Positions 14,901-32,885 of a DNA stretch of 64,000 nucleotides are shown here, in pieces (the stretch's first letter is position 1; each line of letters begins with the position of its first letter). This stretch comes from Bacteroidota bacterium (GTDB taxonomy: Bacteria; Bacteroidota; Ignavibacteria; Ignavibacteriales; Ignavibacteriaceae): NCBI GenBank assembly GCA_021777835.1, contig JAJYDC010000001.1, positions 1 through 64,000 on the forward strand. The letters run 5' to 3'. Made by a program: the position numbers and the translations under genes. A model generated the notes under the pieces. That model ran no database searches and was not told where the DNA came from. It saw only the letters and a program-made list of their open reading frames with translations.

Positions 14901-14936
14901 TTTTTAATAATTTCGGGAATACAATTAAGGTCAATT

Positions 14937-16986: not shown

Positions 16987-18225
16987 GTGAAAGTAACAGT
17001 AATTACTTTCGTAATTTTTGCCACCATAGGACTACAATCAGTTTTTGCGGGTGGATTTCAGCTTAACGAGCAAAACGCAAGAGCAATGGCAATGGGCGGC
17101 GCATTTACCGCAGTATCGAATGATCCTTCAGCAATTTATTTCAACGCTGCCGGGTTAACACAACTTAGCGGAATCAACATTATGCTTGGTACTACATTGA
17201 TAGCACCTACTTTTTCATTTAGAGGCGTTAGCCCGTCAATTCATGAATACGATGCAGCTAAACAAACTTTTTTCCCTACACACTTCTTTGCCTCTTATAA
17301 TTATAATAAAGATTTAGCATTTGGTCTTGGATTCGATAGCCCTTTCGGTCTTGCTTCCAAATGGGATCCAGATTGGGTGGGAAAATATTTAGCCATTGAA
17401 ACTAAGTTGCAGACATTTACGATTTCTCCTGTCGTGGCTTATAATGTACTTGATAATCTTTCAGTTAGCGCAGGACTTGTATATAGTTTTGCTACGGTAA
17501 CTATCTCTCAAAAATCTCCGCAGACTCCGTTTACAGGCGATGCTTTTACAACATTAACCGGAAAGGATAATTCTGCTTGGGGATATAGTTTAGGAGCCAT
17601 GTACAAACCAATTGATGGATTATCAATCGGCGTGTCTTTTCACAGTCAAGTCAAATATCATTTTAAGGGAACAGCATCGACAATTGGCGCTGCACAACTC
17701 GCTTCACAGCTACCAAACGGTAATATTTCAGCAAATTTAACTACACCGATTAATTTAGCATTTGGAGTCGCCTATCAGGTTCTACCTCAATTATTATTAT
17801 CAGCTGACTATCAATATGTAGGATGGTCAAGTTATGATAGCTTAACAGTTGATTTTTCATCACCAAATATGGTAAAATCTTCTCCGCGTCTTTATGATAA
17901 TTCTTTTATCCTCCGCTTCGGAGCAGAATATGGGTTAACCCAAGACCTTAAAGTGCGCGCAGGTATTTATTATGACAAGGACCCGGTAAAAGCTCAATAC
18001 TTAAATCCTTCTTTACCGGATGCAGACCGTCTCGGGTTTAGTTTCGGTCTCGGTTATAAACTAATGAATAATTTCAATATTGACGCTGCTTACTTGTTTA
18101 TTAGAGGAAAGCAGATGACAATTACTAATTCTCTAGAGAATTATGCTGCTGGAATTTCTCCGTTTAATGGAACTTACAATACAGCCGCTAATTTAGTGTC
18201 ATTAACACTATCATATAGTTTATAA
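16987..18225 (+). CDS. OmpP1/FadL-type outer membrane transport protein
   Basis: FadL-family barrels let hydrophobic compounds such as long-chain fatty acids enter through the outer membrane. The 412-residue protein has a signal peptide cut after about VFAGG, followed by the family plug start GGFQLNEQNARAMAMGGAFT and NDPSAIYFNAAGL, then alternating barrel strands to the terminal SLTLSYSL. The start is GTG with a full AAGGAGGT ribosome binding site. A GDSL-type lipoprotein follows 15 bases on, suggesting joint lipid or ester capture. Confidence 0.92.
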   Translation: MKVTVITFVIFATIGLQSVFAGGFQLNEQNARAMAMGGAFTAVSNDPSAIYFNAAGLTQLSGINIMLGTTLIAPTFSFRGVSPSIHEYDAAKQTFFPTHFFASYNYNKDLAFGLGFDSPFGLASKWDPDWVGKYLAIETKLQTFTISPVVAYNVLDNLSVSAGLVYSFATVTISQKSPQTPFTGDAFTTLTGKDNSAWGYSLGAMYKPIDGLSIGVSFHSQVKYHFKGTASTIGAAQLASQLPNGNISANLTTPINLAFGVAYQVLPQLLLSADYQYVGWSSYDSLTVDFSSPNMVKSSPRLYDNSFILRFGAEYGLTQDLKVRAGIYYDKDPVKAQYLNPSLPDADRLGFSFGLGYKLMNNFNIDAAYLFIRGKQMTITNSLENYAAGISPFNGTYNTAANLVSLTLSYSL

Positions 18226-18240
18226 TTTAGAAAAGGATAA

Positions 18241-19692
18241 ATGAAAATGAAAAAGACTTTAAATTTAATTTTTACAGCGCTGCTTTCTGTAATAATATTT
18301 GCAGGCTGTCAGGATAGAACAGATTTGACTGCTCCTAGCGCACAAAGTCCTAAGAGCGGAACTGCTGACTTCACCAGATACGTGTCAATCGGCAATAGCA
18401 TTACTGCAGGTTATCAGTCCGGTGCACTTTTCGAAAGCGGACAAATTTACGCTTACGGAAATTTAATAGCGAAACAAACCGGAACTTCATTCGAAGAGCC
18501 ACTTATAAGTGATCCTGGAATAGGTGGAAGAATGAAAGTTGCTTCTGTTAGTCCTTTCGCAATATCCGTTGACCCTAGTTCGGGAACACCTCTCTATTTA
18601 ACCTATCCGGCACCATATAATAACTTGGGAGTCCCAGGGGCATTAGTTTATGATGTGTTAAATGCTACTAGTGGTACGACCTGCGCTTCATATGTATTTG
18701 GAAATCCCGCTACCCGGAGTTCAAATCCATTTTTTGATATAATATTGCGCGGCCATGGTTCTCAATTTACACAAACAAAATTATTGCATCCAACTTTTAT
18801 TACTATTTGGATTGGTGCAAATGATGTTTTAGGTTATGCTACAAGCGGAGGTTTTTCACCTTCAGCACCAACGCCAACCGCAACATTTCAATATTTGTAT
18901 AATCAAATGGCTGATAGCATATCATCATTAGGCGCTAAAGTAGTTGTAGCAAATGTTCCCGATGTTACTTCAATTCCGTTTTTTAATACCGTCGGACCAA
19001 TGATGGCTCTTGAAACGCCTTGGTCTACACTTAAATTACTTGGGATACCCGGATTAGTTTATGAACAACACGGTGAAATAATTGGAACAGGTGTTGCTGA
19101 TTCTGCTTCTCTCTTAACAGGAAAGGTTTTGTTAACTCTTGAAGGAAGTAGTTATGCACCGTTATTAGGAAAATCAACCGGACAATTTTATCGTGATAAT
19201 CATTACCCGATATTACCTCCAGGAATTGATACGACAAAAGCATTCGGATTTAGTCCTCAAAACCCCTGGCCAGATGCTTTAATCCTTGATGCTAGTGAAA
19301 TGCAGACGGCTGAGAACTCTACTAACGATTTCAATAATGCAATTAGCGCAATTGCTGCTGCACATAATTGGGGTGTAGTAGATATTCATACCATATTCAA
19401 TCAAATGCGTGCAAATGATTTTGCAGGCGGAACAAACTATGACGGAATCAATTTTACAACAACGTATGTAACCGGAGGCTTGTTTACACTCGATGGAGTA
19501 CATCCTACTGCGCAAGCACAGGGTATAATTGCAAATGCTTTCTTACAAGTAATAAACTCAAAATTTGGTGCAAGTTATCCAATGCTTAACGTTGCAACAC
19601 TTCCAAACAGCTTGATTTTAGCTAAGAGGAGCGCATTGTTAAGTCAATATCCTTATTTTGAAAATGGTGCATTTAAACATTTATTGTTTTAA
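18241..19692 (+). CDS. SGNH/GDSL hydrolase lipoprotein
   Basis: This 483-residue protein carries a lipoprotein signal with lipobox FAGC (Cys23). It has the SGNH blocks: SIGNSIT with nucleophile Ser53, the IGANDVL block III, and DGVHPT with Asp418 and His421. The fold class covers esterases, lipases and acetylhydrolases; the substrate is unknown. Co-location with the FadL barrel, and an own terminator after it, support a two-gene unit that releases and imports fatty acids; that link is inference. Confidence 0.9.
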   Translation: MKMKKTLNLIFTALLSVIIFAGCQDRTDLTAPSAQSPKSGTADFTRYVSIGNSITAGYQSGALFESGQIYAYGNLIAKQTGTSFEEPLISDPGIGGRMKVASVSPFAISVDPSSGTPLYLTYPAPYNNLGVPGALVYDVLNATSGTTCASYVFGNPATRSSNPFFDIILRGHGSQFTQTKLLHPTFITIWIGANDVLGYATSGGFSPSAPTPTATFQYLYNQMADSISSLGAKVVVANVPDVTSIPFFNTVGPMMALETPWSTLKLLGIPGLVYEQHGEIIGTGVADSASLLTGKVLLTLEGSSYAPLLGKSTGQFYRDNHYPILPPGIDTTKAFGFSPQNPWPDALILDASEMQTAENSTNDFNNAISAIAAAHNWGVVDIHTIFNQMRANDFAGGTNYDGINFTTTYVTGGLFTLDGVHPTAQAQGIIANAFLQVINSKFGASYPMLNVATLPNSLILAKRSALLSQYPYFENGAFKHLLF

Positions 19693-19702
19693 TTAAATCT
19701 AT

Positions 19703-19731
19703 AGGGATGGCATAAAAGCCATCCCTTTTTT
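19703..19731 (+). terminator. Rho-independent terminator after the GDSL lipoprotein gene
   Basis: AGGGATGGC (19703-19711) pairs perfectly with GCCATCCCT (19718-19726) over a 6-base loop and is followed by a run of T. It lies 10 bases past the stop codon. Confidence 0.95.
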
Positions 19732-19800
19732 GTTTCATTTCAATTCTAATAATTTGTTCTTATTTTTGATATATTATTTTTATAACCTGGAAGGCAGATC

Positions 19801-20265
19801 ATGAAAAGGATTATTAGCTCACTATCGACTTTGATTTTATTTTCATTGTTAGTTTCGGCATGCTCAAGCACTCAGCAGACCACACAGACCAAAACAGAGC
19901 CAAAAGATTCTCTTTATGTATTTGATAAAGTTCCGGTTGACACAACGAAGCCGGTAGAGCTCTCTAAAGAAGAAACACCCCCTCAAGAATCACAAAATAG
20001 TCAGAATGTTCAAAATATTCAAACCCCATATTATCTTGTCCAAATTGGCGCATTTTCAACTAAAGACAGAGCGCAAGAGTTTGTAGATAAGACTCAGTCG
20101 CTTTTAAATCAGAAAGTTAATATAACTTTGAATCCTGATGTAAATTTATTTGTTGTTAGACTCGCAAAAGTTTACCCAACTCATGATCAAGCTGAAACAG
20201 TGAAAAATGAATTAAGACAGCAAGAAGCTTTCAAAGACGCTTGGGTTGTTACTGTAAATAAATAG
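19801..20265 (+). CDS. SPOR-domain lipoprotein
   Basis: The 154-residue protein has a lipoprotein signal (VSAC, Cys21), a 50-residue low-complexity Thr/Gln/Pro-rich linker, and a C-terminal SPOR domain (about 78-152) that starts YYLVQIGAFSTKDRAQEF. SPOR domains bind denuded glycan strands of peptidoglycan, often at the division septum. It is likely anchored to the outer membrane facing the periplasm, as RlpA- or DedD-like proteins are, but no enzymatic domain is present. Confidence 0.9.
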   Translation: MKRIISSLSTLILFSLLVSACSSTQQTTQTKTEPKDSLYVFDKVPVDTTKPVELSKEETPPQESQNSQNVQNIQTPYYLVQIGAFSTKDRAQEFVDKTQSLLNQKVNITLNPDVNLFVVRLAKVYPTHDQAETVKNELRQQEAFKDAWVVTVNK

Positions 20266-20329
20266 AAATAATTAGTTTTGAAATTGCAGCTCTAGCGAGT
20301 TAAGCAATAAGTATCTACTATATTGTCGT

Positions 20330-21250
20330 TTATATTTTATTATTTTTATCTAAATTTCTCCAAGAACCAGCAAGGAATGAGGCAGATATATTTTGCCAAA
20401 CACTAAATATTGCACACGGAAAAGCGGCGATAGAGGAAAAATATTTTACTGCTTGTGCGACGCTTAGCCCCGAGTTCTGCATTCTGACTTCTATGGCTAT
20501 TGTTCTGCTAGTTTTAATATGATATTTAAATACTTTTGGAATAAAATAACCTAATAGATACCCTAAACTACTTACAAGTATAACGCTCAACAAGGTGGCA
20601 AGATTAACCTTAAATAGCATAGCTTTATTTAATGCTACTATAATTGATACTATTACTAAAATAGCAAGAGTTGATATAAGAGGGAAGATGGATCCTACTT
20701 TATCCTGATTTTTAGAGAATATTGAATTAACTGCCGTACCGATTAAAACCGGGAATAAAACAATTTGTAAAATACTTATCATTATATCCCAAAATGGAAC
20801 CGGGACAATTTGGTGTAAGAATAAATAGGAAAAGGCTGGAGTGGCAATTACTGCAAAAAGCGTATTTGTTGTTGTAAGCATTACCGACAAAGCAACGTCT
20901 GCATTGCCAAGATAACACATCACATTCGAGGCGGTTCCGCCGGGGCTGCATCCGACTAATACAGTGCCTGCTATAAGCTGAGGGGTTAATCGAAAGGATT
21001 TAGCTATAAAGAACGCAGAAAAAGGCATTATCAAGTATTGAAGAAACACACCGAAAACGATAACCCCAGGAAGTTTCAACACAGCTTTAAAATTTTCCCA
21101 ATTCAAGGTCATTCCCATACCAAACATAACCGGCTTAAGCAGAGGAACTATGTCAGATTTGAAGACTAAAAATATTTCTGGAAATAAATATGCAGCTAGA
21201 GCAAAGAGCACAGCCCAAATTGGGAAGAATCTTGAAGTTCTTTCAATCAA
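20330..21250 (-). CDS. Bile acid:sodium symporter family transporter
   Basis: This inner membrane carrier of the BASS family has about nine to ten hydrophobic segments in 306 residues. Family features are FGMGMTLNWENF near residue 45, VGCSPGGTASNVMCYLGNADVALSV near 100, and a late sodium-site region. Bacterial BASS proteins move organic anions such as pantoate or pyruvate; the substrate here is not evident. It begins at TTG nine bases after the stop of the outer membrane gene upstream, without a clear ribosome binding site, so reinitiation is plausible. Confidence 0.9.
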   Translation of the reverse strand: MIERTSRFFPIWAVLFALAAYLFPEIFLVFKSDIVPLLKPVMFGMGMTLNWENFKAVLKLPGVIVFGVFLQYLIMPFSAFFIAKSFRLTPQLIAGTVLVGCSPGGTASNVMCYLGNADVALSVMLTTTNTLFAVIATPAFSYLFLHQIVPVPFWDIMISILQIVLFPVLIGTAVNSIFSKNQDKVGSIFPLISTLAILVIVSIIVALNKAMLFKVNLATLLSVILVSSLGYLLGYFIPKVFKYHIKTSRTIAIEVRMQNSGLSVAQAVKYFSSIAAFPCAIFSVWQNISASFLAGSWRNLDKNNKI

Positions 21251-21259
21251 TAAGAAGCT

Positions 21260-21877
21260 CTATTGAAATAGAAGCATTAAACTCACAGAAAATGCATTTA
21301 CGCTTTTTTCACCAGAATTTTTCCCTACGAGATTAAAGACATTATATTTAGCGCTTAAATCAAAATCTACCGGCGGTATTGTTATCTCAGCTCCAATACC
21401 AATCCCTCCGCCTAAGCGACTAAGAGTCGGTGAATCCAAAGTTGCTCCACTAGGTGCTTCTATTTCTAGTTTCCCAAAATTATTTTCCGAAATATTTAAT
21501 GCCACATAAGGGCGCATAAATGGGAAAGGCAGAGCAAAATATTCAGCCTCGGCACCTATTGAAAAAATACTTAAAGATGTCTGATAACCTGTATAATCAC
21601 CTGATCCTGTGCCTTTTAGAATACCGTAATTAATAAAAGCGACCGGAGTTATTGGAAATAATGGCAGATTGAATTTTGCTTCAACGCCAAATTGATAATT
21701 ATTTTTTAATCCATACGCATCTACATTCCCATTTGTTAATGAAATATTGTTCGTATAATAATTTGGCGACTGCAGCGAAAGTAATCCTCCACCTACTCCA
21801 ATTTTAAGAAGTTGTGCATCAGCACTTTGAATAAACAATAACATGAACAAAAAGAGTATCACAGAGATATATTTCAT
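21260..21877 (-). CDS. Outer membrane beta-barrel protein, function unknown
   Basis: The 205-residue protein has a signal peptide (cut after about QSADA) and alternating polar/hydrophobic strands ending in a terminal aromatic stretch VSLMLLFQ, the layout of an 8-stranded OmpA/OmpW-like barrel. No named family was recognised. It is the first gene of a two-gene minus-strand unit with the BASS transporter; the pairing suggests an outer and an inner membrane step for one solute, which is inference. Confidence 0.75.
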   Translation of the reverse strand: MKYISVILFLFMLLFIQSADAQLLKIGVGGGLLSLQSPNYYTNNISLTNGNVDAYGLKNNYQFGVEAKFNLPLFPITPVAFINYGILKGTGSGDYTGYQTSLSIFSIGAEAEYFALPFPFMRPYVALNISENNFGKLEIEAPSGATLDSPTLSRLGGGIGIGAEITIPPVDFDLSAKYNVFNLVGKNSGEKSVNAFSVSLMLLFQ

Positions 21878-22224
21878 ATTTATCCTTTTTCATCAATTAT
21901 TAAATTACCAGGTGAAAAGATAAACTTTTTCCAATCAAATTATCAATAGGAAATTTTGTATATGATATAGAAATTAAAGGAACTTTTCGATATAATTATC
22001 GTCTCATCAGTAGTTAGGCGAGCTTTGGTATCTATTTGTAATTTAGTTGTTTAGGGCACAATTAAAATTAGTACAGGATATTATAATTACAATTGAAATA
22101 ATACTTTGTTAATAATGAAAGCAAAAAGCGAGAGCCTTTATAGATAACCAGAGATTTAGTTAAATTTACAAATTGAATTTTGTTAAGCAATTTAAAATAC
22201 ATTATTGTATACTTGAGAAAAGAA
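21878..22224. other. Divergent intergenic region
   Basis: About 347 AT-rich bases separate the divergent barrel gene and TPR gene. I see no RNA gene, strong hairpin or repeat; both promoters should lie here. Confidence 0.5.
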
Positions 22225-25200
22225 ATGAAAAAAACATATCAGATAATATTATTTGTTATTTTATCTTTTATAACTTTAAAAGCGCAAACAACAGCAGATA
22301 ACTACACTGAAGCTATGAGTGCATATAATTCCAGACAATACGCCATAGCAAATAGGATGTTTCAGAAATTTTTTGCTGAACACCACCTAACTGACGAATT
22401 ATACTCTACTGCAAAATACTATTCTGCAAACGCCCTTCTAAAAATTGGAGAAAAAAATGCTGCCGCTGCAGGTTTTGAATATTTGGTAAATTATTTTAAA
22501 TGGTCAAATTTTAGAGATAAGGCGTTATTTAAGCTTGGATTAATTTATTTTGATTTAGGACAGTATTCGCAAAGCATGGCGAGGCTCAAAACACTTATTA
22601 GTGATTATCCATCAAGCAATTATGCGGGGCAGTCCTATTATTGGATCGGAGAGGACTATTCAAAACAAAATAATTTAGAAGATGCAATTACTTTTTTAAA
22701 AGAGGCAATCAAAAACAATCCTAATAATAAATATATTGACTATTCGATATACACATTAGCAAATATTTATGAAAAGACTGGAGATTATAATAGTGCAATA
22801 AAATATTACGACAATCTTTTGTCTTACCATAGTGACAGCCCGCTTGCAAACGCAGCGCACATTAGAATAGGTATTTGCTATTTCAAGGTTAAGGATTATG
22901 ATTCCGCCACGCTTGAATTAAATAACCCGGTTATTAAAAGCCTTCCTGCTAATGAGTATTCTGAAGATCTTTATTTACTAGCAAACTCATATTACCGGCT
23001 AGAGGAGTACCCGCAAGCTGAAAGAGCGTATATCGAAATAATAGAAAAATATCCTGAATACAAGGACTTACGCAGTGCTAAATATGGTTTGGCATGGTGT
23101 TACTTCCAGCAAAAACATTACGAGCATGCTTACAAGATGTTCAACTCTATTTCTGATGGGAATGATAGCATTGCTGTACGGTCTTTTTATTGGAAGGCCG
23201 AGTCGGAAAGATATGCTGGCAGAGAAAAAGAAGCATATGATTTATATAAGGAATTTGCGAGCAGGTTCCCAAATAATCCATTAACTAATCATGTTATGTT
23301 CCAACTTGGCGGAATATATTTTAATGAAAGGAATTATGACTTAGCTGAGAAATACTTAAAAGCTTCTTCTGCTGATTCCGATAGTTCGATAAAATCCAAA
23401 TCACTTATGTTACTAGGCGAAATTGATTTAGAAAAAAGACATTTTGAAACTGCTAATGGATATTTTGAAGAAGCTATGAAAGTCCCTTCCGTATCTGCAG
23501 GGTTAATTAATAGATCGTTATTAGGATTGGGAGCATCAGAATTTTTTCAGCATAACTATAAAGCTGCTATAATAAATTTAAATGAAGTCAGCTCACGCGA
23601 TCCCAACTTTGAGAGAAATAAAGTTAATTTTTATCTTGCGGAAAGTTTCTATGCAATAGGGAAGTATAAAGAAGCTTTGAGCAGATATGATAAGGTCAAC
23701 TTTGATGATCCAGAAGTTGGGAATCTTGCATTATACGGTAAAGCTTATTGTTATTTTAATTTGAAGGAATTCGATGAAGCGGCTAAATCATTTTCGGAGT
23801 ATGTAACAAAATATCCTGAAAGTCCTAGAATTCTTGATGCCCGGATTAGACTAGCCAGCAGCTATTACGGCAGTAAGAATTTTACAGCTTCAAGTAAAGT
23901 ATACAAGGAAATGTTTAGGAGTGATAAGCGAGCATTTGATAATCCCTTCTCTTATTATCAATATGCCCAAGCTTTATATAAAGCAAATAAAACAACTGAT
24001 GCAATAAATGAATTCCAAAGCCTTCAAGAAAAGTTTCCTGGTTCAGAATATGCTGACAAATCGCTATATGTAATTGGCTGGATTTATTTTCAACAAGGAA
24101 ATTATCCGCAGGCTATAATTAGTTATAGAAATGCGATATCCAAATATCCTAATTCATCGCTTGCTCCTGTCTTGTATTATTCAATCGGAGATTCCTACTA
24201 TAACCTGGCAGAGTACGATTCTGCAATTATAAATTATCAAGCTGTGATGACGAACTTTCCCTCTTCTCCCCACGTGTTTGACGCAATTAACGGAATCCAA
24301 TATTGCTATGTTGCCGAAAACCATCCTGAAAAGGCGATTAGCCTTATCGATTCATTTATTGATGCAAACCCCGGCACACCATCAGCCGATCAAATATATT
24401 TTAAGAAAGGTGATATTTATTATAGTATCCAGGATTACAAAGATGCAGGGTTGAGTTATAAAGAATTTATTGCAAATTATCCTAATAGTAAATTAGTCCC
24501 GCAAGCATATTATTGGGTAGGAAAGAGTGCCGAGAATTTAGGTCAAAATCAGGACGCACTGTTTTATTTCCAACGAGTCTTTGAATCCTATCCAAATAGC
24601 GAATCGGCACCTGCTGCTGTTATTGAGATGGGTAATATTTATAATTCAATGAAAGATTATAATGCAGCTATTGAATTATTTGATAAGGCGCTTACAACCC
24701 TGCCAGATAAACTTCGCTTTCCTGAAATCTTATTTATGAAAGGGATGACATTATCAAATAATAATGACGTTGGATCAGCAGCACAGGTATTTAATACTAT
24801 AATCCAAGAATATGGGCAGAGTGTATTTGCTGATAAATCAAAACTTGAATTAGGTATTATTGATATGGTTGCAAAAGACTATACGGACGCAAATACGTAT
24901 CTGCAAGACCTGGCACAATCAAGAACTGACGAGATCGGCGCGGAAGCACAGTTTTATTTAGGCGAAATTCTTTACGAACAAAATAATTACCAAGATGCTA
25001 TATCTGCCTTTGTCACCGTAGGAACTGTTTTTCAAGCTTATGATCAATGGGTAACTAAATCAAATTTAAGGTTAGGGGACTGCTATGCCAAATTAAAAGA
25101 TTACAGAAAGGCAAAAGAAATCTATCGTTCAGTCTTTATAAATCATCATAGCGATGTATTTGGAACTGAAGCGAGATTAAAACTAAGGAAATTGAGATGA
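22225..25200 (+). CDS. Secreted TPR-repeat protein (about 990 residues)
   Basis: The protein has a signal peptide (KKTYQIILFVILSF, cut near LKAQ) and then tetratricopeptide repeats along nearly its entire length. Recurrent units have the pattern Y-x-x-G-x-x-Y-(F/Y)-x-x-(K/G)-x-Y-x-x-A followed by (Y/F)-P-x-S/N, as in YbgF/CpoB and BamD-like proteins. A longer frame opens at TTG 22180, but the ATG at 22225 directly starts the signal peptide, so I chose it. It overlaps the next barrel gene by ATGA. A periplasmic scaffold for envelope assembly is likely; the exact partner is unknown. Confidence 0.9.
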   Translation: MKKTYQIILFVILSFITLKAQTTADNYTEAMSAYNSRQYAIANRMFQKFFAEHHLTDELYSTAKYYSANALLKIGEKNAAAAGFEYLVNYFKWSNFRDKALFKLGLIYFDLGQYSQSMARLKTLISDYPSSNYAGQSYYWIGEDYSKQNNLEDAITFLKEAIKNNPNNKYIDYSIYTLANIYEKTGDYNSAIKYYDNLLSYHSDSPLANAAHIRIGICYFKVKDYDSATLELNNPVIKSLPANEYSEDLYLLANSYYRLEEYPQAERAYIEIIEKYPEYKDLRSAKYGLAWCYFQQKHYEHAYKMFNSISDGNDSIAVRSFYWKAESERYAGREKEAYDLYKEFASRFPNNPLTNHVMFQLGGIYFNERNYDLAEKYLKASSADSDSSIKSKSLMLLGEIDLEKRHFETANGYFEEAMKVPSVSAGLINRSLLGLGASEFFQHNYKAAIINLNEVSSRDPNFERNKVNFYLAESFYAIGKYKEALSRYDKVNFDDPEVGNLALYGKAYCYFNLKEFDEAAKSFSEYVTKYPESPRILDARIRLASSYYGSKNFTASSKVYKEMFRSDKRAFDNPFSYYQYAQALYKANKTTDAINEFQSLQEKFPGSEYADKSLYVIGWIYFQQGNYPQAIISYRNAISKYPNSSLAPVLYYSIGDSYYNLAEYDSAIINYQAVMTNFPSSPHVFDAINGIQYCYVAENHPEKAISLIDSFIDANPGTPSADQIYFKKGDIYYSIQDYKDAGLSYKEFIANYPNSKLVPQAYYWVGKSAENLGQNQDALFYFQRVFESYPNSESAPAAVIEMGNIYNSMKDYNAAIELFDKALTTLPDKLRFPEILFMKGMTLSNNNDVGSAAQVFNTIIQEYGQSVFADKSKLELGIIDMVAKDYTDANTYLQDLAQSRTDEIGAEAQFYLGEILYEQNNYQDAISAFVTVGTVFQAYDQWVTKSNLRLGDCYAKLKDYRKAKEIYRSVFINHHSDVFGTEARLKLRKLR

Positions 25201-26792
25201 TTAAGAAAATTATTGTAATTCTTGTTTTTAGTTGTATTTCGCTGTTTGCTCAAGACGGGCAAAAACAAAATCCCGGCGTACAATTACCCGATTTTGTAAT
25301 TACGGGGAAAGACATTATTTCTGTTGAAAATGCAAAAAAGATTCCACCTCCGTTCATATCAACTTTATCCGAGCAATTTTTCAAACCTGTGTTTTCACCT
25401 GAAAATTTGCACATTAAAGATATTGATATACCTATTAAAGGTTCTTTAATTAAATTAGATTCACTGAATTATTATAATGGGAGAGTAGACGCTGGTATGG
25501 GCTTATATTCATTACCCACTGCAGATATAAGTTACGCTCAGCCTTTTGCTAACGGTATGCTTGAAGGTTATGCCTCTGTGTTAAATCAGCGCGCTTATGT
25601 TACAAATAGTGATAGGTATAGTTTTAACGGCGGGGCGAGTCTTTTCCTTTTTGTAAGAGATGACAGCAAACTATTACCGGGAACTCATTTCAAATTCGGC
25701 GGCAATTATTCCACCTATTATTATAAATTCTATGCCTCGGATAATCCATTCATTAAAAGAAACCTAGACATTGGTAAAGCATCTCTTAAAATAGAAAACC
25801 TGACTAGCAAGTATGTAATTTTTAGCGGCAAAATTGATGATAAATTAGTTTCGCTGCAAAATGAGAATTTTTCAGAAAACCTTATGAACATTGATGGCTA
25901 TGCTAAATTTGGTTTTCCTACATTTTATCTAAACGTAGATGCGAATTTTAAGAAACAATTTCTGACGAATGATACATATAATAATCAAAGCAGTTTTTTC
26001 ATGATGGCTAGGCCATCAGCAGAATTGAATATCACAAATCTCTTAAAAGCTTCTTTTGGGTTTTATTTTTCTCAGGTAAGCGGAAATAATTTTTTCTCGC
26101 CATACGCTTCGGCTGCATTAAACCTCGGCAACGGAATATCACTTTTCGGAGATTTTTCTCCAAATACTGATTTCTTAACCTCAGAATATTTCCTTACTCA
26201 AAATCCTTATTATAATCCTCAAAGCTTCTCAAGTTTGTTTGTGAAAAATAATTATGCTCTAAATGCTTATATTAAATACGAATACTATACTTTATTCGAA
26301 CTTGACGGAGGCATCAAATATCTATCAACAGAAAATTTACCATATTTTTCAGACATAAATTTACCAGGCATTTTTAATATTCTTACTTCAAATGCAAAGA
26401 GCTATTCTGCCTTTGTTAATATTCTTTTCCATCTTGGTCCCTATGGTGAATTTTACGGCACTACAGAAGTAAACAGTACAAAAGATACTTCCGGGAAATT
26501 TGTCCCATATTTCCCGCAATTGAAGACATCTTTAAATTATCGGTATTTCTTTTCTTCAGGGTTAGATGCTGGAATCAATTTAATTTACAATGCAGGTAGC
26601 TACGCGGATATACAAAATAGATCGGAATTGAACCCTTATTTCAATTTAGGGCTAAATTTTTCGTATCAGTTAGAGCCTGATTTCTTATTGACTCTCAAAT
26701 TTTCTAATCTATTTAATCATAAAAATTATATATGGAATGGATATCAGGAACTTCCTCTTAATGTCGTTGGCGGAATAAGATATCAATTTTAA
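25197..26792 (+). CDS. Outer membrane beta-barrel protein, TonB-receptor-like
   Basis: The 531-residue protein has a signal peptide ending at LFAQ, a short periplasmic N-terminus with LPDFVITGKDI that resembles a TonB box, and then a barrel of many amphipathic strands ending in the outer membrane signature GGIRYQF. It lacks a recognisable full plug domain, so it is not an ordinary TonB-dependent receptor. It is translationally coupled (ATGA) to the TPR protein and followed two genes later by a TonB-like protein. Confidence 0.8.
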   Translation: MIKKIIVILVFSCISLFAQDGQKQNPGVQLPDFVITGKDIISVENAKKIPPPFISTLSEQFFKPVFSPENLHIKDIDIPIKGSLIKLDSLNYYNGRVDAGMGLYSLPTADISYAQPFANGMLEGYASVLNQRAYVTNSDRYSFNGGASLFLFVRDDSKLLPGTHFKFGGNYSTYYYKFYASDNPFIKRNLDIGKASLKIENLTSKYVIFSGKIDDKLVSLQNENFSENLMNIDGYAKFGFPTFYLNVDANFKKQFLTNDTYNNQSSFFMMARPSAELNITNLLKASFGFYFSQVSGNNFFSPYASAALNLGNGISLFGDFSPNTDFLTSEYFLTQNPYYNPQSFSSLFVKNNYALNAYIKYEYYTLFELDGGIKYLSTENLPYFSDINLPGIFNILTSNAKSYSAFVNILFHLGPYGEFYGTTEVNSTKDTSGKFVPYFPQLKTSLNYRYFFSSGLDAGINLIYNAGSYADIQNRSELNPYFNLGLNFSYQLEPDFLLTLKFSNLFNHKNYIWNGYQELPLNVVGGIRYQF

Positions 26793-26866
26793 TGAGTATA
26801 AATTTAAATTGAATAATTCATTTTAAATTTCATTAAATTATAAGTACTAATAATTAATTTTCTATT

Positions 26867-28765
26867 ATGACCAAAGCAGAACTTATAAGGAAGCTTGCAA
26901 AAAGATCCGGCATACCTGATTCGGAAGCAAAAATATTCTTCGAGATATTTTTAAGGGATGCTTCGGAGAACTTGAAGCTAGGCGAAGCTATTAAATTGAA
27001 GAACTTTGGTTATTTCCAATTTAAGAGAGGAATGATCAAGAACATTCATTCTGCCCATAAAACAGAAAATAACTTAGCTTATGCAGACTTGATGGTTTTT
27101 ACACCTCTCAAAGAAGATGAAGAAAGTGAAGATAATTTAATATTTAATATCCCATCTTTGCGAGATGAAGAATTTCATTATGTCGACTTGTTTTTCAGTT
27201 TAAGTATTGGAAAGCCAGTTATCCCTCTAAAAGGAGCTGCAAGTGCCGAATTCTTTATACCGCCAACCGGAATTGAATTAAAAAAACTTATCCATTCTCG
27301 GGTTGAAAAACTTCTGCTTGACGTTGAGATTATTGATAAACACGTTAAAGGTAGCGAATTTTTATTGATAGATGCGAGCAAAGGTGAATTAGAACAATTT
27401 GAGTTTAATTGGGAAAGTGTTTATTCTGAAAATAAAGAATATCCGGTATTAAATAAATCTATAGAAAAACATGGTTATCCGGTAGATGATTCTGAACTTG
27501 AACATGTAGATTGGGACTTCGGTGAAAATTTATCTAAAGAAATTGAAGAAGAAGTTTTATTAGATACTAATAAAGATAGTGATAATCTTACTAGTTACGA
27601 GTCTGACAGTTCGACGGGAATAGAGTGGAACTTCGGAATACCAGTTTCAAGAAATACGGGAATACAAGGCGAGGAATTTGAAGAGGTTGAATCTTTAAGA
27701 TCGACATTGAGCAGGGGATTTACTAATGAATTCGACAACGATAAGAAAATCAACGAGGACTATCTTTCTACTAAGGAATTTGAAGAAAATGTTATTAAAG
27801 AGTTAGACAATTTTGATAGAGTGAAAGCCGTTACATCAGAGTTAAAAGAATCCCCTAAAAGCTTAGGTATAACACAATCTGAACTCAATCTTTCCTGGAA
27901 TTTTGGCGAGCCTAACCCAGAAGTAAATGATGAAAATAGTAAAGAGAATGATAAGGATAATCTCCTAAGTGAAGTAAATGAACTTAATAGTGACAAGATA
28001 AGAAGTTACGAGACTCCCGCTGTCAATAATGGGAGTAACTCTGTAAAGAATGATAAAATATTGGCTGATAGTGAGGTTACTATACCCATTCCGGGTGCTG
28101 ATATTTCGATGAAAAAGGAATATCCTAAGGGAGACAAAGATGCGGGGCCAAAAATTAGAAAGAGAACTTCAATTGTATTTACGATTGCGCTATCCGTTAT
28201 TATATTAATGGCGTTCTTTTTATATGCAATACTAAATAAGTATAATATTATTTCTATTTTTAGTCCAAATGGGAGGGTTAGTGCTGTTGGAAGAAGCTAT
28301 GGTAAACCTATTGTTATCAAGCGTGACTACCAGGTGCCGGTAAATTACCCTTATGCCAAAAAGGATATAACTGCTGATTTGGCTAATCAAGGAATTGATC
28401 CTTCTACGATAGCAGATAATAAGCCTCAAACAGATTCTAACGCGCAACCTGATAAGAATAATCTATCGAATCTTCTTAATACTCCAAAGCAAAAGGCAAA
28501 TTTATCTTCCGGTGTTATAGCACCAAAGAAACAAAATAGGTTAAATGATAATATTGTACTGTCAGCAGGTTATTTTTCTGTGCAGATATCTTCTTGGAAG
28601 TCAAAGTCATCTGCGGTAGATGAAGTTGAAAAATTTAAAGAGAAAGGTTATCAGGCAAGTTATCAGAAAGTTGAGATCCCCGGAAAAGGTATTTGGTATC
28701 GCGTTATAGTAGGTGGTTTCAAATCAGCGGCTGCTGCAAAAGAGTTTTTAGTAAATAACAAATAA
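26867..28765 (+). CDS. HU-like domain, transmembrane segment and SPOR domain fusion protein
   Basis: The 632-residue protein has an N-terminal HU/IHF-fold region (about 1-80: TKAELIRKLAKRSGI and KLKNFGYFQFKRG), a second cytoplasmic segment (about 100-175), a long acidic linker, one transmembrane helix (about 434-456) and a C-terminal SPOR domain (about 553-632). The order resembles the HU-CCDC81/SPOR architecture known in Bacteroidetes, which could link nucleoid or cytoplasmic partners to septal peptidoglycan. The linker holds three W-[DN]-F-G motifs (216-219, 254-257, 344-347). DNA binding by the HU-like part is not proven by the sequence. Confidence 0.87.
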   Translation: MTKAELIRKLAKRSGIPDSEAKIFFEIFLRDASENLKLGEAIKLKNFGYFQFKRGMIKNIHSAHKTENNLAYADLMVFTPLKEDEESEDNLIFNIPSLRDEEFHYVDLFFSLSIGKPVIPLKGAASAEFFIPPTGIELKKLIHSRVEKLLLDVEIIDKHVKGSEFLLIDASKGELEQFEFNWESVYSENKEYPVLNKSIEKHGYPVDDSELEHVDWDFGENLSKEIEEEVLLDTNKDSDNLTSYESDSSTGIEWNFGIPVSRNTGIQGEEFEEVESLRSTLSRGFTNEFDNDKKINEDYLSTKEFEENVIKELDNFDRVKAVTSELKESPKSLGITQSELNLSWNFGEPNPEVNDENSKENDKDNLLSEVNELNSDKIRSYETPAVNNGSNSVKNDKILADSEVTIPIPGADISMKKEYPKGDKDAGPKIRKRTSIVFTIALSVIILMAFFLYAILNKYNIISIFSPNGRVSAVGRSYGKPIVIKRDYQVPVNYPYAKKDITADLANQGIDPSTIADNKPQTDSNAQPDKNNLSNLLNTPKQKANLSSGVIAPKKQNRLNDNIVLSAGYFSVQISSWKSKSSAVDEVEKFKEKGYQASYQKVEIPGKGIWYRVIVGGFKSAAAAKEFLVNNK

Positions 28766-28786
28766 CATCATAAAAGTTTTTTTGAT

Positions 28787-29485
28787 ATGGTCTATAATTC
28801 AGTAAAGAATGTTTCGGTATCTGTTTCAATATTTGCTCATATTGTTATAATAGCGTTACTGCTTACAATAAAATTGACTGTCTCATATCCACCTGAAAAA
28901 TACGTTGAGTTGTCGTTCGGGCAATCCGGTTTACCAGGTTCTTCAGGAGCAGTAGGCGACCAGGTTAACAACAATGATCAGCAAATTCAGCAAGCCTCCC
29001 AAAGTGATTCTAAAAACAAGTCTGTAGATCTTAAGTCCACTGAAATTCCTAAGGTTAAGAATCTATCGAATGAGGATTTAATATCCGAATCAGTAAAAAA
29101 GGACCAGAAGGGGAAGAGCGATAAAAACGCTGATAAGAAGTCAACTAACTCAGATTTCAATTCTTTAGGTATGGGTAATAAAACCGGAGGAAACGGTAGT
29201 TTTGGCTACGACATTGATTGGGGAGGAAAAGGACAAAGGAAGATTTATAGCTATAATATACCCCCTTACCCCGAAGGAGTGAATAAAGAAATAGATATTC
29301 GCCTTAAATTTACAATACTTCCGGACGGTACTGTCGGGACGATAATACCATTGATAAAGGCAGACACAAGACTTGAAAACTCTGCTATAAACGCCTTAAG
29401 GCAGTGGAGGTTTGAGTCATTAGACCCGTCTCAAAAACAAGTCCCTCAAATTGCAGTTATTGTTTTTCCATATCGTCTTCGCTAA
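28787..29485 (+). CDS. TonB-family energy transducer
   Basis: The 232-residue protein has one N-terminal membrane helix (about 12-28), a charged linker rich in Ser, Asp and Lys, and a C-terminal TonB domain (about 150-232) with NIPPYPEGV and the late ALRQWRFE segment. TonB proteins pass proton-motive energy from ExbBD to outer membrane receptors; exbB and exbD are not nearby. It closes the envelope cluster, and its last 29 bases overlap a convergent gene on the other strand. Confidence 0.87.
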   Translation: MVYNSVKNVSVSVSIFAHIVIIALLLTIKLTVSYPPEKYVELSFGQSGLPGSSGAVGDQVNNNDQQIQQASQSDSKNKSVDLKSTEIPKVKNLSNEDLISESVKKDQKGKSDKNADKKSTNSDFNSLGMGNKTGGNGSFGYDIDWGGKGQRKIYSYNIPPYPEGVNKEIDIRLKFTILPDGTVGTIIPLIKADTRLENSAINALRQWRFESLDPSQKQVPQIAVIVFPYRLR

Positions 29486-29756
29486 AAACATCTCTGTAGT
29501 ACATCTTATAGAAAAAGAACTCTGCTATAGATAGTATTGTTAGCGAAAATGCGTCACGGTCGAACATAATTCCTAAACCTTTCTGAGACATTAGTAATTT
29601 TGCAATGATCCCCGATATAGACCATCCTATAGTAAATAATAGACCTATAAGTCCAACGTTAATAAATGCGTCAGACAATTTCTCATCCTGCCATTTCTTT
29701 GTGAATATGACCAATATGAAAAGGAAGTGAGAGAAGAAGATAATTGCAGTAATCAT
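29457..29756 (-). CDS. Small membrane protein, function unknown
   Basis: The 99-residue protein has three hydrophobic segments and no recognised family. It lies 16 bases after another membrane protein gene as the last member of a four-gene minus-strand operon, which is the main reason to believe it is real. Its 3' end overlaps the tonB-like gene by 29 bases on the opposite strand. Confidence 0.7.
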   Translation of the reverse strand: MITAIIFFSHFLFILVIFTKKWQDEKLSDAFINVGLIGLLFTIGWSISGIIAKLLMSQKGLGIMFDRDAFSLTILSIAEFFFYKMYYRDVFSEDDMEKQ

Positions 29757-29772
29757 TTTATTTTAGCAAAAT

Positions 29773-30279
29773 TTAATGTTGAATACGTTTGTTCAAGAAC
29801 GACATACCCAATAGGCTGCCGAATATTCCGAATATAAAATCTATGAATATATTTGTTATAAATATCATAAATGTATAGAGTGGAGAAAATCCGTTAGTTT
29901 GAATTTGCTTTGCCATAGAGCGAAGCATTGTAATTGTTTGGTCAAACAAAGGTCCTGTCAGACCATAGGTCTTCATGAGTGATTCTGTCTGCGGCAAAGC
30001 GGCAATATAGTCGTTAGAGTGGGATATAAATGTCATCAGTACATCAAAAAAGGTTGAGAAGAACGCTGCAAATATTCCTGTAAGGATTCCAAAAGCGAAA
30101 GCCTTTTTTAAGTCGATCGGCGGAAGCGATTTATTAACCTTAATATCTAAAAATAGTGACATGAAAGCGGCGAGCGGGACAATCAGGCAACAACCAATAT
30201 TTTTTATTCCGGGTACTATAGTTAATACGGCGGCTCCGAATCCGCACACGAGTGACGGTAGAATTTTTTTAGTTTCCAT
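29773..30279 (-). CDS. Polytopic membrane protein, DUF4199-like layout
   Basis: The 168-residue protein has four hydrophobic segments: a first pair with a Cys-Cys in NIGCCLIVPL, a glycine-rich third helix with FGILTGIFAAFFSTFF, and a fourth near the C-terminus. The layout recalls DUF4199-type proteins of the FCB group, but the match is only by eye. It overlaps the upstream DUF2085 gene by 11 bases. Confidence 0.7.
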   Translation of the reverse strand: METKKILPSLVCGFGAAVLTIVPGIKNIGCCLIVPLAAFMSLFLDIKVNKSLPPIDLKKAFAFGILTGIFAAFFSTFFDVLMTFISHSNDYIAALPQTESLMKTYGLTGPLFDQTITMLRSMAKQIQTNGFSPLYTFMIFITNIFIDFIFGIFGSLLGMSFLNKRIQH

Positions 30280-30751
30280 TGTTCCTTATTGGCAAATTAT
30301 TTTCAATAACATTCAAAATATAAACAAATGAAACAGAACCAAAAAATAGACCTGTTGCCATTGCGATATATTTGGAATAGTGATAGACCCCTGCGGTTGT
30401 TAATAGAACGTCTGCAAGAAGAATTATAAGAGAAAGAAGAAATATACTTACTCCTTTGATATCCTTAATATAAATGAAATTAGAGATTAAAGAGGCTGTT
30501 AATGCTCCAAGATATATCCCTGTGCAGCGAGCGCATACTAACAACTTCTCTCCGTTAATTGTAAAGGTTTTTGCACCTATCTGATGACATACAATAGAAT
30601 ATATCTTTTTAGTAAATGGGTATGTTAGTAATGCAAGGTTATTCGATTTATATATTAATGGGCTTAGGAAACCAAGGCACCATATTAGAATTAATAGGAA
30701 TAGGGAAGTCCTTATGATACGTTTTGATGTCTTTGAATTAGATAAGATCAT
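30269..30751 (-). CDS. DUF2085 membrane protein
   Basis: The 160-residue protein shows the DUF2085 signature: VCHQIGAKTF followed about 12 residues later by LLVCARCTGIYLGA, in a protein with about four membrane helices. The Cys/His pattern suggests metal or heme-type chemistry but no function is established. It overlaps the NHL gene by ATGA and the next gene by 11 bases, so the four genes are co-translated. Confidence 0.88.
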   Translation of the reverse strand: MILSNSKTSKRIIRTSLFLLILIWCLGFLSPLIYKSNNLALLTYPFTKKIYSIVCHQIGAKTFTINGEKLLVCARCTGIYLGALTASLISNFIYIKDIKGVSIFLLSLIILLADVLLTTAGVYHYSKYIAMATGLFFGSVSFVYILNVIENNLPIRNNGN

Positions 30752-31614
30752 TGAGGTTTTTGATATATGTATATTTTAGTTGGAGTAAGGATATAAAGCT
30801 TATTATTAAAAATAAGGCTGCTTACTATATCTTTTACTTCATCATTACCGCTAAAGTTTATCTTTGTTAGTGATAACGGAGACGTAACAAGATCAGCATA
30901 ATATATTTCTGATTGAGAGTTAACGGTGAGGTTGTCAAAAACTATTCTAATGCTTGAGAAATTATTCTCCTCTTTCAGTGTGTTTATGCCGTTGCCATAT
31001 TGATCAAAGACGATGATTCTTTTTTTATCTACTACAAATATGTTTCCATTTTGGGCAATTGCTAAGCTTAATGGATCAGCCAGGGAATAAGCACCTGCGT
31101 CATAGCCGCCGAAGTTCTGAATGTAATTGCCAAATAGGTCGAATTTAATAATCCTTTTATTCTCTGAGTCAAGTATGTATAGATCACCCTGCAATGATAC
31201 TGAGCAACCAAGAGGATAGCCAAAGCGCATACTTTTATTGTCATTGTTGTGAGTGTCAAGCAGCGAAACAAAGTTCAAATCCTTGTCAAATCTCTCTATC
31301 CTATTATTATTTTTATCTGATACGTAAACCGATAGGGGAGTAGCAAATACGTCAGTAGGGTTATCAAATAGTCCGTTGTCCCACCCATATCCGCCAGCAT
31401 CTTTTAATACGTTGCCGAGTGTATCAATCTTGTAAACTTCATCAGTGTTTGAATCGGTAACATAGAGGATACCACCTGAAGTAATTGAAAATGAAGTAGC
31501 GTTCTTAAAATGCCCGATAGATGATACATATAAGTATCCTTGTGCGAACGTTAGTCCTAGGGAAAAGAAAACTAATGACAGAATAAAAACTGATAACCTT
31601 ATTTGCTTGTACAT
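30748..31614 (-). CDS. Secreted NHL-repeat beta-propeller protein
   Basis: The 288-residue protein has a signal peptide (cut near LTFAQG) and about five to six NHL-like blades, each with a pattern such as LYVTDSNTDEVYKIDTLGN or LYILDSENKRIIKFDLFGN. NHL propellers are binding scaffolds. It heads the minus-strand operon of small membrane proteins, suggesting an envelope role; the ligand is unknown. Confidence 0.85.
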   Translation of the reverse strand: MYKQIRLSVFILSLVFFSLGLTFAQGYLYVSSIGHFKNATSFSITSGGILYVTDSNTDEVYKIDTLGNVLKDAGGYGWDNGLFDNPTDVFATPLSVYVSDKNNNRIERFDKDLNFVSLLDTHNNDNKSMRFGYPLGCSVSLQGDLYILDSENKRIIKFDLFGNYIQNFGGYDAGAYSLADPLSLAIAQNGNIFVVDKKRIIVFDQYGNGINTLKEENNFSSIRIVFDNLTVNSQSEIYYADLVTSPLSLTKINFSGNDEVKDIVSSLIFNNKLYILTPTKIYIYQKPQ

Positions 31615-32275
31615 TAAAATCGAGTTGTAATAGTAATATTATCTTTTAGTCTACATTCAAAAATACACTAAGAAGAACTAAAACAAAACATATTATACTA
31701 CAACATTTGTCTTACCTCAATAGGGGGAAGCACATAATGAGGATAAATCTGAAAATTATATGAAAATTTTAGTTAGCATATGAAGAGTCTTTCATAAAAT
31801 TTAGTATCGCGGATAAAATCTACCGTTACTATAGTAATGGCATAACTAAACCTTAAAGAGACTGTGTGAAAATTAATTTTCATAGAATAAATAGTAATAT
31901 TTTTGAATAAGCTATTTTGGTCTCTTATAATTAAATATATTATGTTAATTGCGCCGCCAACAGCAAGCGGTAAGGCTGGTGTCTGGGCAATAAAAAACAC
32001 TATATTTTAGAAACTACTTCATAATAATATTTGGAATAATCACTTTTTACATTAGAATTTTCATAATGCTTTAACGCTAGAGGTAAATGAAGTCCCAATT
32101 AGCCGGCTTTTTGGATTTGGTTTAAAATATCAAATGTAAAATATCATTAAAAATAAATACTACATGTTAACTAATATATATGCCATTAAGTAATTATATG
32201 ATAATGTGTTATCAGATATCGTATGAGGTTAGAGATATACATTGTTAGGATTATGTTTGGATTGAATAGAAAAGC

Positions 32276-32303
32276 AAGGCTACTTATTAATTAGCCTTTT
32301 AGT
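32276..32303 (+). terminator. Orphan terminator-like hairpin
   Basis: AAGGCTA (32276-32282) pairs with TAGCCTT (32292-32298) over a 9-base loop and is followed by TTAGT. No annotated gene ends upstream on the plus strand, so it may end an unannotated small transcript. The T run is short. Confidence 0.45.
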
Positions 32304-32304
32304 A

Positions 32305-32322
32305 TTTCTTATTAATAAGAAA
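32305..32322. repeat. Perfect 18-bp palindrome
   Basis: TTTCTTATTAATAAGAAA is a perfect palindrome of 18 bp placed directly after the orphan hairpin. It could be a protein binding site or part of a tandem terminator. Confidence 0.5.
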
Positions 32323-32472
32323 CTTAGAGTAGAAGTGAGGTTATATGCCTATAGTTATACTGCATATTTCTGACTTTTCGATATCAATTATATTTAAGGA
32401 AATTAGATAAACTTAGTGATTGAATATAAAGATATATTTTGTAAATTTGGAGACAGGTTTTATGTAATTTTT

Positions 32473-32543
32473 TGCCCTATAGTGTAATGGTAACACGGAG
32501 CACTCTGGATGCTTAATTTAAGGTTCGAGTCCTTATAGGGCAG
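32473..32543 (+). tRNA. tRNA-Gln (anticodon CTG)
   Basis: The sequence folds as a cloverleaf with acceptor stem TGCCCTA/TAGGGCA, D stem GTGT/ACAC, anticodon stem GAGCA/TGCTT around loop CTCTGGA, and T arm TAAGG/CCTTA with loop TTCGAGT. The anticodon CTG reads CAG. The U1-A72 pair and G discriminator fit glutamine identity. G at position 37 and the G-U pair closing the anticodon stem are slightly unusual. CCA is not encoded. Confidence 0.9.
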
Positions 32544-32885
32544 CTAAGCAGTAATTATTAAGAATTTTATATTTCTCACATAGAAACAAAATGAAGTTAG
32601 TAAATTTAGTATATATATACTAAATTTAGATTCATCAACCGCTTATTTGGAATATAACGAACACTGAAGATTAAAAGATCCTTCTAAATGTCACACCATA
32701 TATTTAATTGGCTAAAGTATTAATTCAGTAGTTTCGATAATTATCTATGGAATTATAATAAAAACGAATACATATTTATCTAGTCACTCCTAAAGTATTT
32801 CTAAATGTAAATTCCGTCAATTTAAGTTGCATACTTTTGCAATACTTTCGTAAGGCGGCATTCAGTAATAGAAAAAAACTATAAT
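32544..32885. other. Intergenic region before the hybrid kinase
   Basis: About 340 AT-rich bases between tRNA-Gln and the hybrid histidine kinase. I see no gene, integrase or att-like repeat of the tRNA end; only the kinase promoter is expected here. Confidence 0.5.

Follow-up and report, generated by a model that had tools for sequence, protein, structure and literature searches.

The locus lies in a window of 64,000 nucleotides, the whole stretch of DNA analysed, and contains four consecutive plus-strand genes. An open reading frame (ORF) check confirmed all four where a preliminary description of the sequence had placed them. The genes and their features are listed below.

22225..25200, plus strand: TPR gene, 991 aa
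25197..26792, plus strand: barrel gene, 531 aa
25281..25307, plus strand: TonB-box-like motif QLPDFVITG of the barrel protein (residues 29-37), marked by conservation in a stretch with pLDDT below 50
26867..28765, plus strand: HU-SPOR gene, 632 aa
HU-SPOR residues 1-56, plus strand: HU-like domain, PF00216 (Pfam, 1.9e-8)
27512..27907, plus strand: three W-[DN]-F-G linker motifs at HU-SPOR residues 216, 254 and 344 (motif search)
28172..28228, plus strand: putative TM helix, HU-SPOR residues 436-454 (most hydrophobic 19-mer)
28565..28750, plus strand: SPOR domain, PF05036, HU-SPOR residues 567-628 (Pfam, 1.7e-10)
28787..29485, plus strand: TonB-like gene, 232 aa
28826..28840, plus strand: S-x3-H motif for motor contact, S14 to H18, within the TM helix of the TonB-like protein (motif search)

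The TPR protein, first reported as 990 residues, is 991 aa by count, and its gene has an in-frame alternative TTG start at 22180. The TPR and barrel ORFs share the ATGA overlap that had been claimed, and the same 4-nt overlap occurs in 36/40 near relatives' loci. Neither promoter-like sites at the locus (36, shuffle mean 33.9) nor terminator-like sites (4, compared with 4.2 in shuffles) are in excess, and an Rfam search of positions 18000-33000 matched a tRNA as its sole hit. None of the four proteins has a Pfam match to propeller or OmpA families.

The order TPR, barrel, HU-SPOR, TonB-like is kept in all 40 near relatives' loci, as counted with profiles trained on loci that were collected by a TonB-box pattern; BLASTP with the window proteins gives the same near order, except that the L077 barrel is missed. 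Among 39 distant loci, counted with profiles built without far members, 34 have a TPR gene (longer than 600 aa, starting within 4.5 kb upstream) ahead of the barrel, and 31 have HU-SPOR after it. The TPR ORF of L165 starts beyond the 4.5 kb limit and raises the first count to 35/39 if included, and in L167 one ORF intervenes between TPR and barrel. Neighbours were read in 99 loci (40, 39 and 20), compared with 205 barrel-bearing genomes, and the barrel was found in 56/59 relatives. The preliminary description had named a lack of order conservation outside this genome as its refuter; the opposite was found, with the core recurring in most distant loci read. Conserved gene order rules out chance neighbours, and the cluster is old and kept across much of Bacteroidota. 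Two f22 genomes with weak barrel matches (G063 and G134) were rejected as carriers, their loci (L209 and L210) being without TPR, HU-SPOR, ExbBD and TonB by the profiles used.

The barrel protein matches no Pfam family at E 0.05. In its predicted model, residues 95-530 span 23 strand elements, corresponding to about 22 strands. The model has a mean pLDDT of 84.7 and aligns with FhuA at Z 23.3 (rmsd 2.7 over 413 residues) and with BtuB at Z 23.0. The claim that it has no plug holds in this predicted structure: the model includes no N-terminal plug domain or substrate-binding part, residues 18-89 mostly fall below pLDDT 50, and the best structural-match rows begin past the plug, at FhuA 159 and BtuB 135. 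Some other rows start inside the plug range, with model residues 79-82. The protein models as a TonB-dependent-transporter-type barrel without a plug. An ordinary TonB-dependent receptor for nutrient uptake was set aside as the leading explanation, given the missing plug and the constant TPR partner.

The TonB-box-like N-terminus noted earlier is present and is the most conserved stretch of the barrel protein. LPDFVITG sits in a tail predicted to be disordered, and QLPDFVITG ranks highest in conservation among all 9-residue stretches, with a mean column identity of 0.956 versus 0.451 for the barrel part. This figure is taken from a single alignment, because other loci, together with two derived alignments, were gathered with the pattern LP[DE]FVITGx[DQE]. 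The motif, present and extremely conserved, is a putative TonB box. It also argues against the proposal that the operon holds two functional units with separate jobs, a TPR-barrel pair and a HU-SPOR/ExbBD/TonB set, as the tail links the barrel to the TonB unit. Consistent with two units are six f28 loci in which TPR and barrel alone remain together, and four loci (L178 and L180-L182) in which the barrel stands with HU-SPOR, ExbBD and TonB and no adjacent TPR gene. On balance, such a division is unlikely.

The TPR protein matches many Pfam TPR families, and its N-terminus, judged by eye, is signal-peptide-like without a lipobox Cys, which suggests that it is exported. It scores 342.6 bits against TIGR02795 YbgF (cut-off 90.1), a repeat-driven score; 111.3 bits against the CpoB equivalog NF008068 (cut-off 383); and 43.8 bits against NF033756 GltC (cut-off 450). 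Type IX secretion membership is ruled out by its 144.8 bits against the PorW/SprE model NF052312, below the cut-off of 250. In the proposed arrangement it sits in the periplasm, as a partner of the barrel or as its cap.

The TPR-barrel pairs AlgK-AlgE, PgaA and BcsC are models for a transport reading, in which a Ton-type machine would serve a channel dedicated to a single conserved substrate, be it lipid, polysaccharide or protein; the TPR protein would keep this channel shut until TonB pulls it open. The transporter fold of the barrel favors this reading, as do the overlapping TPR and barrel ORFs (36/40 near loci) and the persistence of the pair where the rest is gone. Against it stand the missing plug and substrate-binding part in the predicted model, the SPOR protein within the operon, and the single conserved barrel in 56/59 relatives, unlike a nutrient-specific system. 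Transport is a credible possibility without being the favored one.

The HU-SPOR protein consists of an HU-like domain, a linker, a single TM helix, and a SPOR domain, and its predicted topology places the HU-like domain in the cytoplasm and the SPOR domain in the periplasm. The linker motif W-[DN]-F-G, picked post hoc, occurs 43 times in 22/41 near proteins versus 0.21 expected after shuffling. The predicted model of residues 1-190 is HU-like, with weak structural matches (best Z 3.2, rmsd 4.6 over 68 residues, 29 percent identity). DNA-bending HU/IHF proteins carry an NPxTG-type arm; this arm is found in 0/41 near HU domains and in 1/73 near and far domains combined (L168).

CCDC81-like prokaryotic HU proteins form a clade for which a role in chromosome partition has reportedly been predicted. 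The window HU-SPOR protein differs from them in that it reaches neither of their Pfam models, PF18174 and PF18175, at E 0.05 and scores as an ordinary HU. The likeness lies in distant genes at the same place, which carry both domains together with SPOR. Among 36 genes scanned directly after the barrel, including the window's, SPOR is found in 28, PF18175 in 9, and PF18174 in 5; in L187 the gene at this place has CCDC81-like HU domains at 4.1e-18 and 2.9e-6 and SPOR at 4.8e-6. By these Pfam matches distant HU-SPOR orthologues have CCDC81-like prokaryotic HU domains, so not all cluster parts are unnamed. The claim of a machine not described under any name therefore stands in part: no description of the cluster under one name was found in literature whose coverage left out preprints and most subscription papers, and the HU-SPOR orthologues do match a named domain.

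The window TonB-like protein matches TonB_C (PF03544) over residues 171-225 at 7e-5 and 23.7 bits, just under the curated cut-off of 24.6; its L054 counterpart exceeds the cut-off at 27.8 bits, and the L187 counterpart has no PF03544 match. S-x3-H is found in the TM helix of 41/41 near members and 5/27 far members, one of the five (L161) being doubtful with a match that precedes the helix; some far members have adjoining ExbBD. The window locus has no ExbB or ExbD gene, as had been observed. As a trait of the system this fails: ExbB and ExbD lie between the HU-SPOR and TonB-like genes in 29/40 near relatives' loci, were identified by Pfam in the L054 cluster, and have an invariant TM aspartate in ExbD (Asp20, 44/44). 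On the tree their presence in the cluster has changed five or more times, and their lack is a loss in the window's and some other lineages. Elsewhere the window genome has four MotA/ExbB-type genes: one in an ExbB-ExbD-TonB set and one in an ExbB-ExbD-ExbD set. The remaining two are on contig C54; the one inspected has flagellar-looking neighbours.

Motor genes in most relatives' clusters rule out a transducer without any motor. A narrower proposal is that in lineages like the window's the TonB-like and HU-SPOR proteins form a passive, motorless tether that merely links membranes and wall. Cluster ExbBD is indeed missing in 11/40 near loci and the window, but S-x3-H is retained in all 12 of these members, and some ExbB-type gene occurs in all but one of 59 relatives. 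A passive tether is very unlikely.

The cluster resembles several known systems. Like the Ton system with FhuA and BtuB, it has the barrel fold, a TonB-box-like N-terminus, and ExbB/ExbD/TonB genes; it differs in its plugless barrel, constant TPR partner, and HU-SPOR gene in the operon. Like Tol-Pal (TolQ-TolR-TolA-TolB-Pal-CpoB), it unites a motor of the ExbB/TolQ and ExbD/TolR type, a TonB/TolA-type transducer, and a TPR protein resembling YbgF, and a septal (SPOR) protein counts among the likenesses. Unlike Tol-Pal, it has no TolB or Pal, and a plugless transporter barrel is its outer-membrane partner. In domain make-up, the Glt/Agl gliding core of Myxococcus, as given in the available excerpt of PMC3169522, likewise clusters a TolQR-like motor with TPR proteins and a transducer bearing a TonB motif, and differs in having no HU-SPOR and barrels of other types (GltH is autotransporter-like). 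The same excerpt lists this core for Delta-, Gamma-, and one Betaproteobacterium and Fibrobacteres, and does not list Bacteroidetes. PorE of type IX secretion is proposed, in the available part of PMC12204202, to be a CpoB-TolB-Pal fusion that stabilizes the outer membrane in Bacteroidetes, the same role as is proposed here for the cluster. PorE is a single lipoprotein that combines TPR, propeller, and OmpA-like domains, in contrast to four proteins without propeller or OmpA matches.

TolB and the barrel differ in their distribution. By profile search, full-length TolB is found in 63/64 genomes of the green-sulphur family f24 versus 0/232 others, and the barrel at E 1e-30 in 0/64 f24 genomes versus 205/232 others; these tallies were made by hand, and the 1e-30 cut was chosen after the table was viewed. 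In the f24 loci Pfam identifies a Tol-Pal operon, and these genomes have Tol-Pal without the barrel. In the window genome TolB_N was not found, and the best TolB-profile match (9.4e-17) is not a full-length TolB. Pfam TolB_N has low sensitivity, within f24 as well (found in 7/148 genomes, 4 of them f24), and the TolB profile was built from four f24 sequences, so confidence in the absence of TolB elsewhere goes no further than that profile. Outside f24, 27 sampled genomes have neither TolB nor barrel by the profiles used, and the contrast is essentially that of one clade. Families f19, f37 and f41 are among those in which both were missing.

From the domains, we infer that the cluster may span the envelope and act at the septum. 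The main reading, given a probability of about 45 percent, is that it encodes a counterpart of Tol-Pal: a trans-envelope machine of Ton type, driven by protons and working at the division septum. In its favor stand the conserved gene order, ExbBD in the clusters of most relatives with the invariant ExbD aspartate, S-x3-H in all near members, the plugless transporter-type barrel whose box is far more conserved than the rest, SPOR in 28/36 genes after the barrel, and the contrast between f24 and other genomes in TolB and barrel. ExbBD would energize the TonB-like protein, whose C-terminal domain would grip the TonB-box-like motif of the barrel by strand addition, as TonB does. With no plug to pull, the tail of the barrel and the TPR solenoid would take the force, the solenoid probably forming a periplasmic cap over the barrel. 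HU-SPOR would position the machine at septal peptidoglycan and tie it to the cytoplasm, and the outer membrane would thereby be drawn inward with the constricting wall. In the window organism, where cluster ExbBD is gone, one of the two other genomic ExbBD sets would drive the machine.

A more specific version, offered tentatively and with some doubt, is that the cluster is the missing Tol-Pal of Bacteroidota. A Ton motor would have been co-opted for a transporter barrel which, having shed its plug, now serves as an outer-membrane constriction handle in place of TolB-Pal. HU-SPOR would link the machine with the septal wall and, by way of HU and the W-x-F-G linker motifs, with the cytoplasm. 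In the green sulphur bacteria, where Tol-Pal is present, the cluster is missing.

Several observations run against a Tol-Pal counterpart. S-x3-H is kept in just 5/27 far members, six f28 loci keep TPR and barrel alone, and the HU domain is without the NPxTG arm. The TolB contrast is essentially that of one clade, with 27 genomes having neither, and PorE has already been proposed for the role (PMC12204202, available part).

Bacteroidota include gut commensals, and the available part of a 2025 survey (PMC12204202) treats as an open question which system keeps their outer membrane stable as they divide. The cluster brings motor, transducer, outer-membrane partner, and septal protein into one conserved operon and makes that question directly testable. 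A transporter barrel that shed its plug while retaining a TonB box would also put a Ton client to a new use.

The cluster comprises four genes of the window, which are open reading frames at the plus-strand places where the preliminary description put them. The listed features are:

22225-25200, plus strand: TPR gene (gene 1), an open reading frame with Pfam TPR families
25197-26792, plus strand: barrel gene (gene 2), an open reading frame
26867-28765, plus strand: HU-SPOR gene (gene 3), with Pfam SPOR and an HU-type domain
27512-27907: repeated W-[DN]-F-G motifs in the HU-SPOR cytoplasmic linker
28787-29485, plus strand: TonB-like gene (gene 4), with Pfam TonB_C just below the cut-off

The TPR and barrel open reading frames share an ATGA, an overlap repeated in 36 of 40 loci from relatives of the window's organism (the near loci). 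A search with the window's barrel protein matches 56 of 59 related genomes. Near loci were taken around the barrel, and their genes were mapped by BLASTP to the window's proteins and also by profiles. All 40 have the order TPR, barrel, HU-SPOR, TonB (the barrel of L077 by profile only), so the gene order is conserved outside the window's genome, the test named in the preliminary description. That description also held that the TonB-like transducer lacks ExbBD. This is correct for the window, whose locus has no ExbB or ExbD gene, but not as a general trait: 29 of the 40 near loci carry two extra genes between HU-SPOR and TonB, which Pfam identifies in L054 as MotA_ExbB (2.7e-35) and ExbD (1.7e-24), making the absence a local state. 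A quick tree built from 41 TPR proteins requires five or more changes of the ExbBD state. Within the window's own genus, the cluster of L042 contains ExbBD, which is absent from those of the window, L038-L041, L043, and L044.

Flanking genes recur as well. Behind the cluster, four convergent minus-strand genes (29457-31614; 99 aa, DUF4199 168 aa, 160 aa, and NHL-like 288 aa) hold the same place in most of the 40 near loci. The upstream region in L054 (1200-4401) contains an LTXXQ-family gene on the opposite strand, as well as an ECF-type sigma factor gene, behind which come two small genes and a TPR gene of 254 aa; many near loci have similar-sized open reading frames there, the Pfam assignments coming from L054 alone.

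The gene 2 product matches no Pfam family at E 0.05. Its model shows 23 strand elements over residues 95-530, with pLDDT below 50 at residues 18-55 and 60-89. VIA-align pairs the model with FhuA (Z 23.3, rmsd 2.7, 413 residues) and BtuB (Z 23.0) in rows that begin past the plug, at FhuA 159 and BtuB 135; some other rows begin within the plug, at model residue 79-82. TonB-dependent transporters also head the Foldseek list. From these matches and their plug-less starts, gene 2 is predicted to encode a transporter barrel in which no more than some 70 residues take the plug's place. Close to the signal peptide, the tail contains QLPDFVITG, the most conserved nine-residue stretch of the protein in the alignment of 40 barrels (mean column identity 0.956 versus 0.451 for the barrel part). 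A short conserved motif in the disordered tail of a transporter barrel whose cluster includes a TonB gene is what would be expected of a TonB box, and this stretch is a putative one. Distant barrels carry variants near the same place, such as EEIEVVRPYKP or TETVTVTKAYTP.

In the model of HU-SPOR residues 1-190, an HU-like fold precedes a region of lower certainty, and structural matches are weak, with HU chains on top (Z 3.2). The NPxTG arm is missing in all 41 near members, which makes DNA bending in the manner of HU unlikely. Among 36 scanned genes at the HU-SPOR place, the window's included, 28 match SPOR, and two models of CCDC81-like prokaryotic HU proteins, a clade reportedly predicted to act in chromosome partition, match 9 and 5, all of these from distant loci. 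The linker motifs (W-x-F-G, 43 in 22 of 41 proteins versus 0.21 expected) look like docking peptides for some cytoplasmic partner. A second, small SPOR protein (19801-20265, 154 aa, PF05036 8.3e-10) is encoded about 2 kb upstream of the cluster on the same strand, and L038 has it too.

The transmembrane helix of the TonB-like protein contains S-x3-H in 41/41 near members, whether or not the cluster includes ExbBD; among 27 far members it is present in just 5, of which one is doubtful. A passage of PMC12204202 describes the histidine of an SHLS motif at this place as essential for the motor contact of TolA and TonB; its main text does not contain the string "SPOR". ExbD Asp20 (44/44) and ExbB Thr127 (45/45) are invariant. 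Away from the locus, the window's genome has four MotA/ExbB-type genes: one in an ExbB-ExbD-TonB set, one in an ExbB-ExbD-ExbD set, and two on contig C54, where the one inspected sits amid flagellar-looking genes. The genome's two ExbBs share 30 and 34 percent identity with the L042 cluster ExbB, and neither is close to the cluster type; nine ExbBs from other clusters are 57-81 percent identical to that of L042. Some ExbB-type gene occurs in 58 of the 59 relatives.

Across a phylum sample of 296 genomes, the 40-barrel profile matches 220. A profile of 49 barrels matches 293 at E 0.001, but because these include ordinary TonB-dependent receptors, only matches at E <= 1e-30 were counted, a cut chosen once the table had been seen that leaves 205 genomes (tallied by hand). 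In 39 distant loci picked on barrel score rather than neighbors, profiles built from near members only detect an upstream TPR in 34, HU-SPOR in 31, TonB in 26, and each of ExbB and ExbD in 18. In 20 further loci, profiles that include those 39 and exclude these 20 find TPR in 16, HU-SPOR in 14, ExbB and ExbD in 11, and TonB in 8; two weak matches from family f22, included in these 20, did not represent the cluster. Some loci have an incomplete set: by these profiles, six f28 loci retain TPR-barrel alone, and the TPR neighbor is missing in L178, L180-L182, L226, and L227 (f30). In L187, a FolC-like gene with Mur-ligase domains by Pfam follows TonB (13841-15130); other far loci have like genes of about 430-450 aa there, the Pfam basis being the L187 gene only.

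Of 148 genomes, 7 have a Pfam TolB_N match, four of them in family f24; the window's genome has none. FMO protein in all seven f24 genomes tested identifies f24 as green sulphur bacteria; one f37 genome has FMO too. Pfam reveals Tol-Pal clusters in two f24 loci: L202 (MotA_ExbB, ExbD, TonB_2, an extra 559-aa gene, TolB_N with PD40, OmpA (Pal), and a TPR gene) and L204 (ExbB and ExbD by profile, then TonB_2, TolB_N with PD40, OmpA, and a TPR gene, consecutively). By a profile of four f24 TolBs, full-length TolB is present in 63 of 64 f24 genomes (all except G263) and in none of 232 outside, where the top match is partial (1.3e-37); no f24 genome has the barrel at E <= 1e-30. The contrast is striking, yet based on one clade. 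Neither protein, at these thresholds, occurs in 27 sampled genomes outside f24 (f19, f37, f41, f22, and six singles); f19, f37, and f41 account for 18 of the sampled genomes with neither.

The TonB-like protein is most likely driven by ExbBD and most likely pulls the barrel's tail. On the periplasmic side, the TPR solenoid would be a natural cap for a barrel that is otherwise open, and also the pull's output; SPOR would bring the complex to the septum. The main rival has the same machine serve as a channel for one substrate. The plug that defines the Ton transporter is missing from the barrel, and TolB and Pal, the defining features of Tol, are missing from the cluster; with the motor and transducer signatures of both, the cluster is a new form within the Ton/Tol kind.
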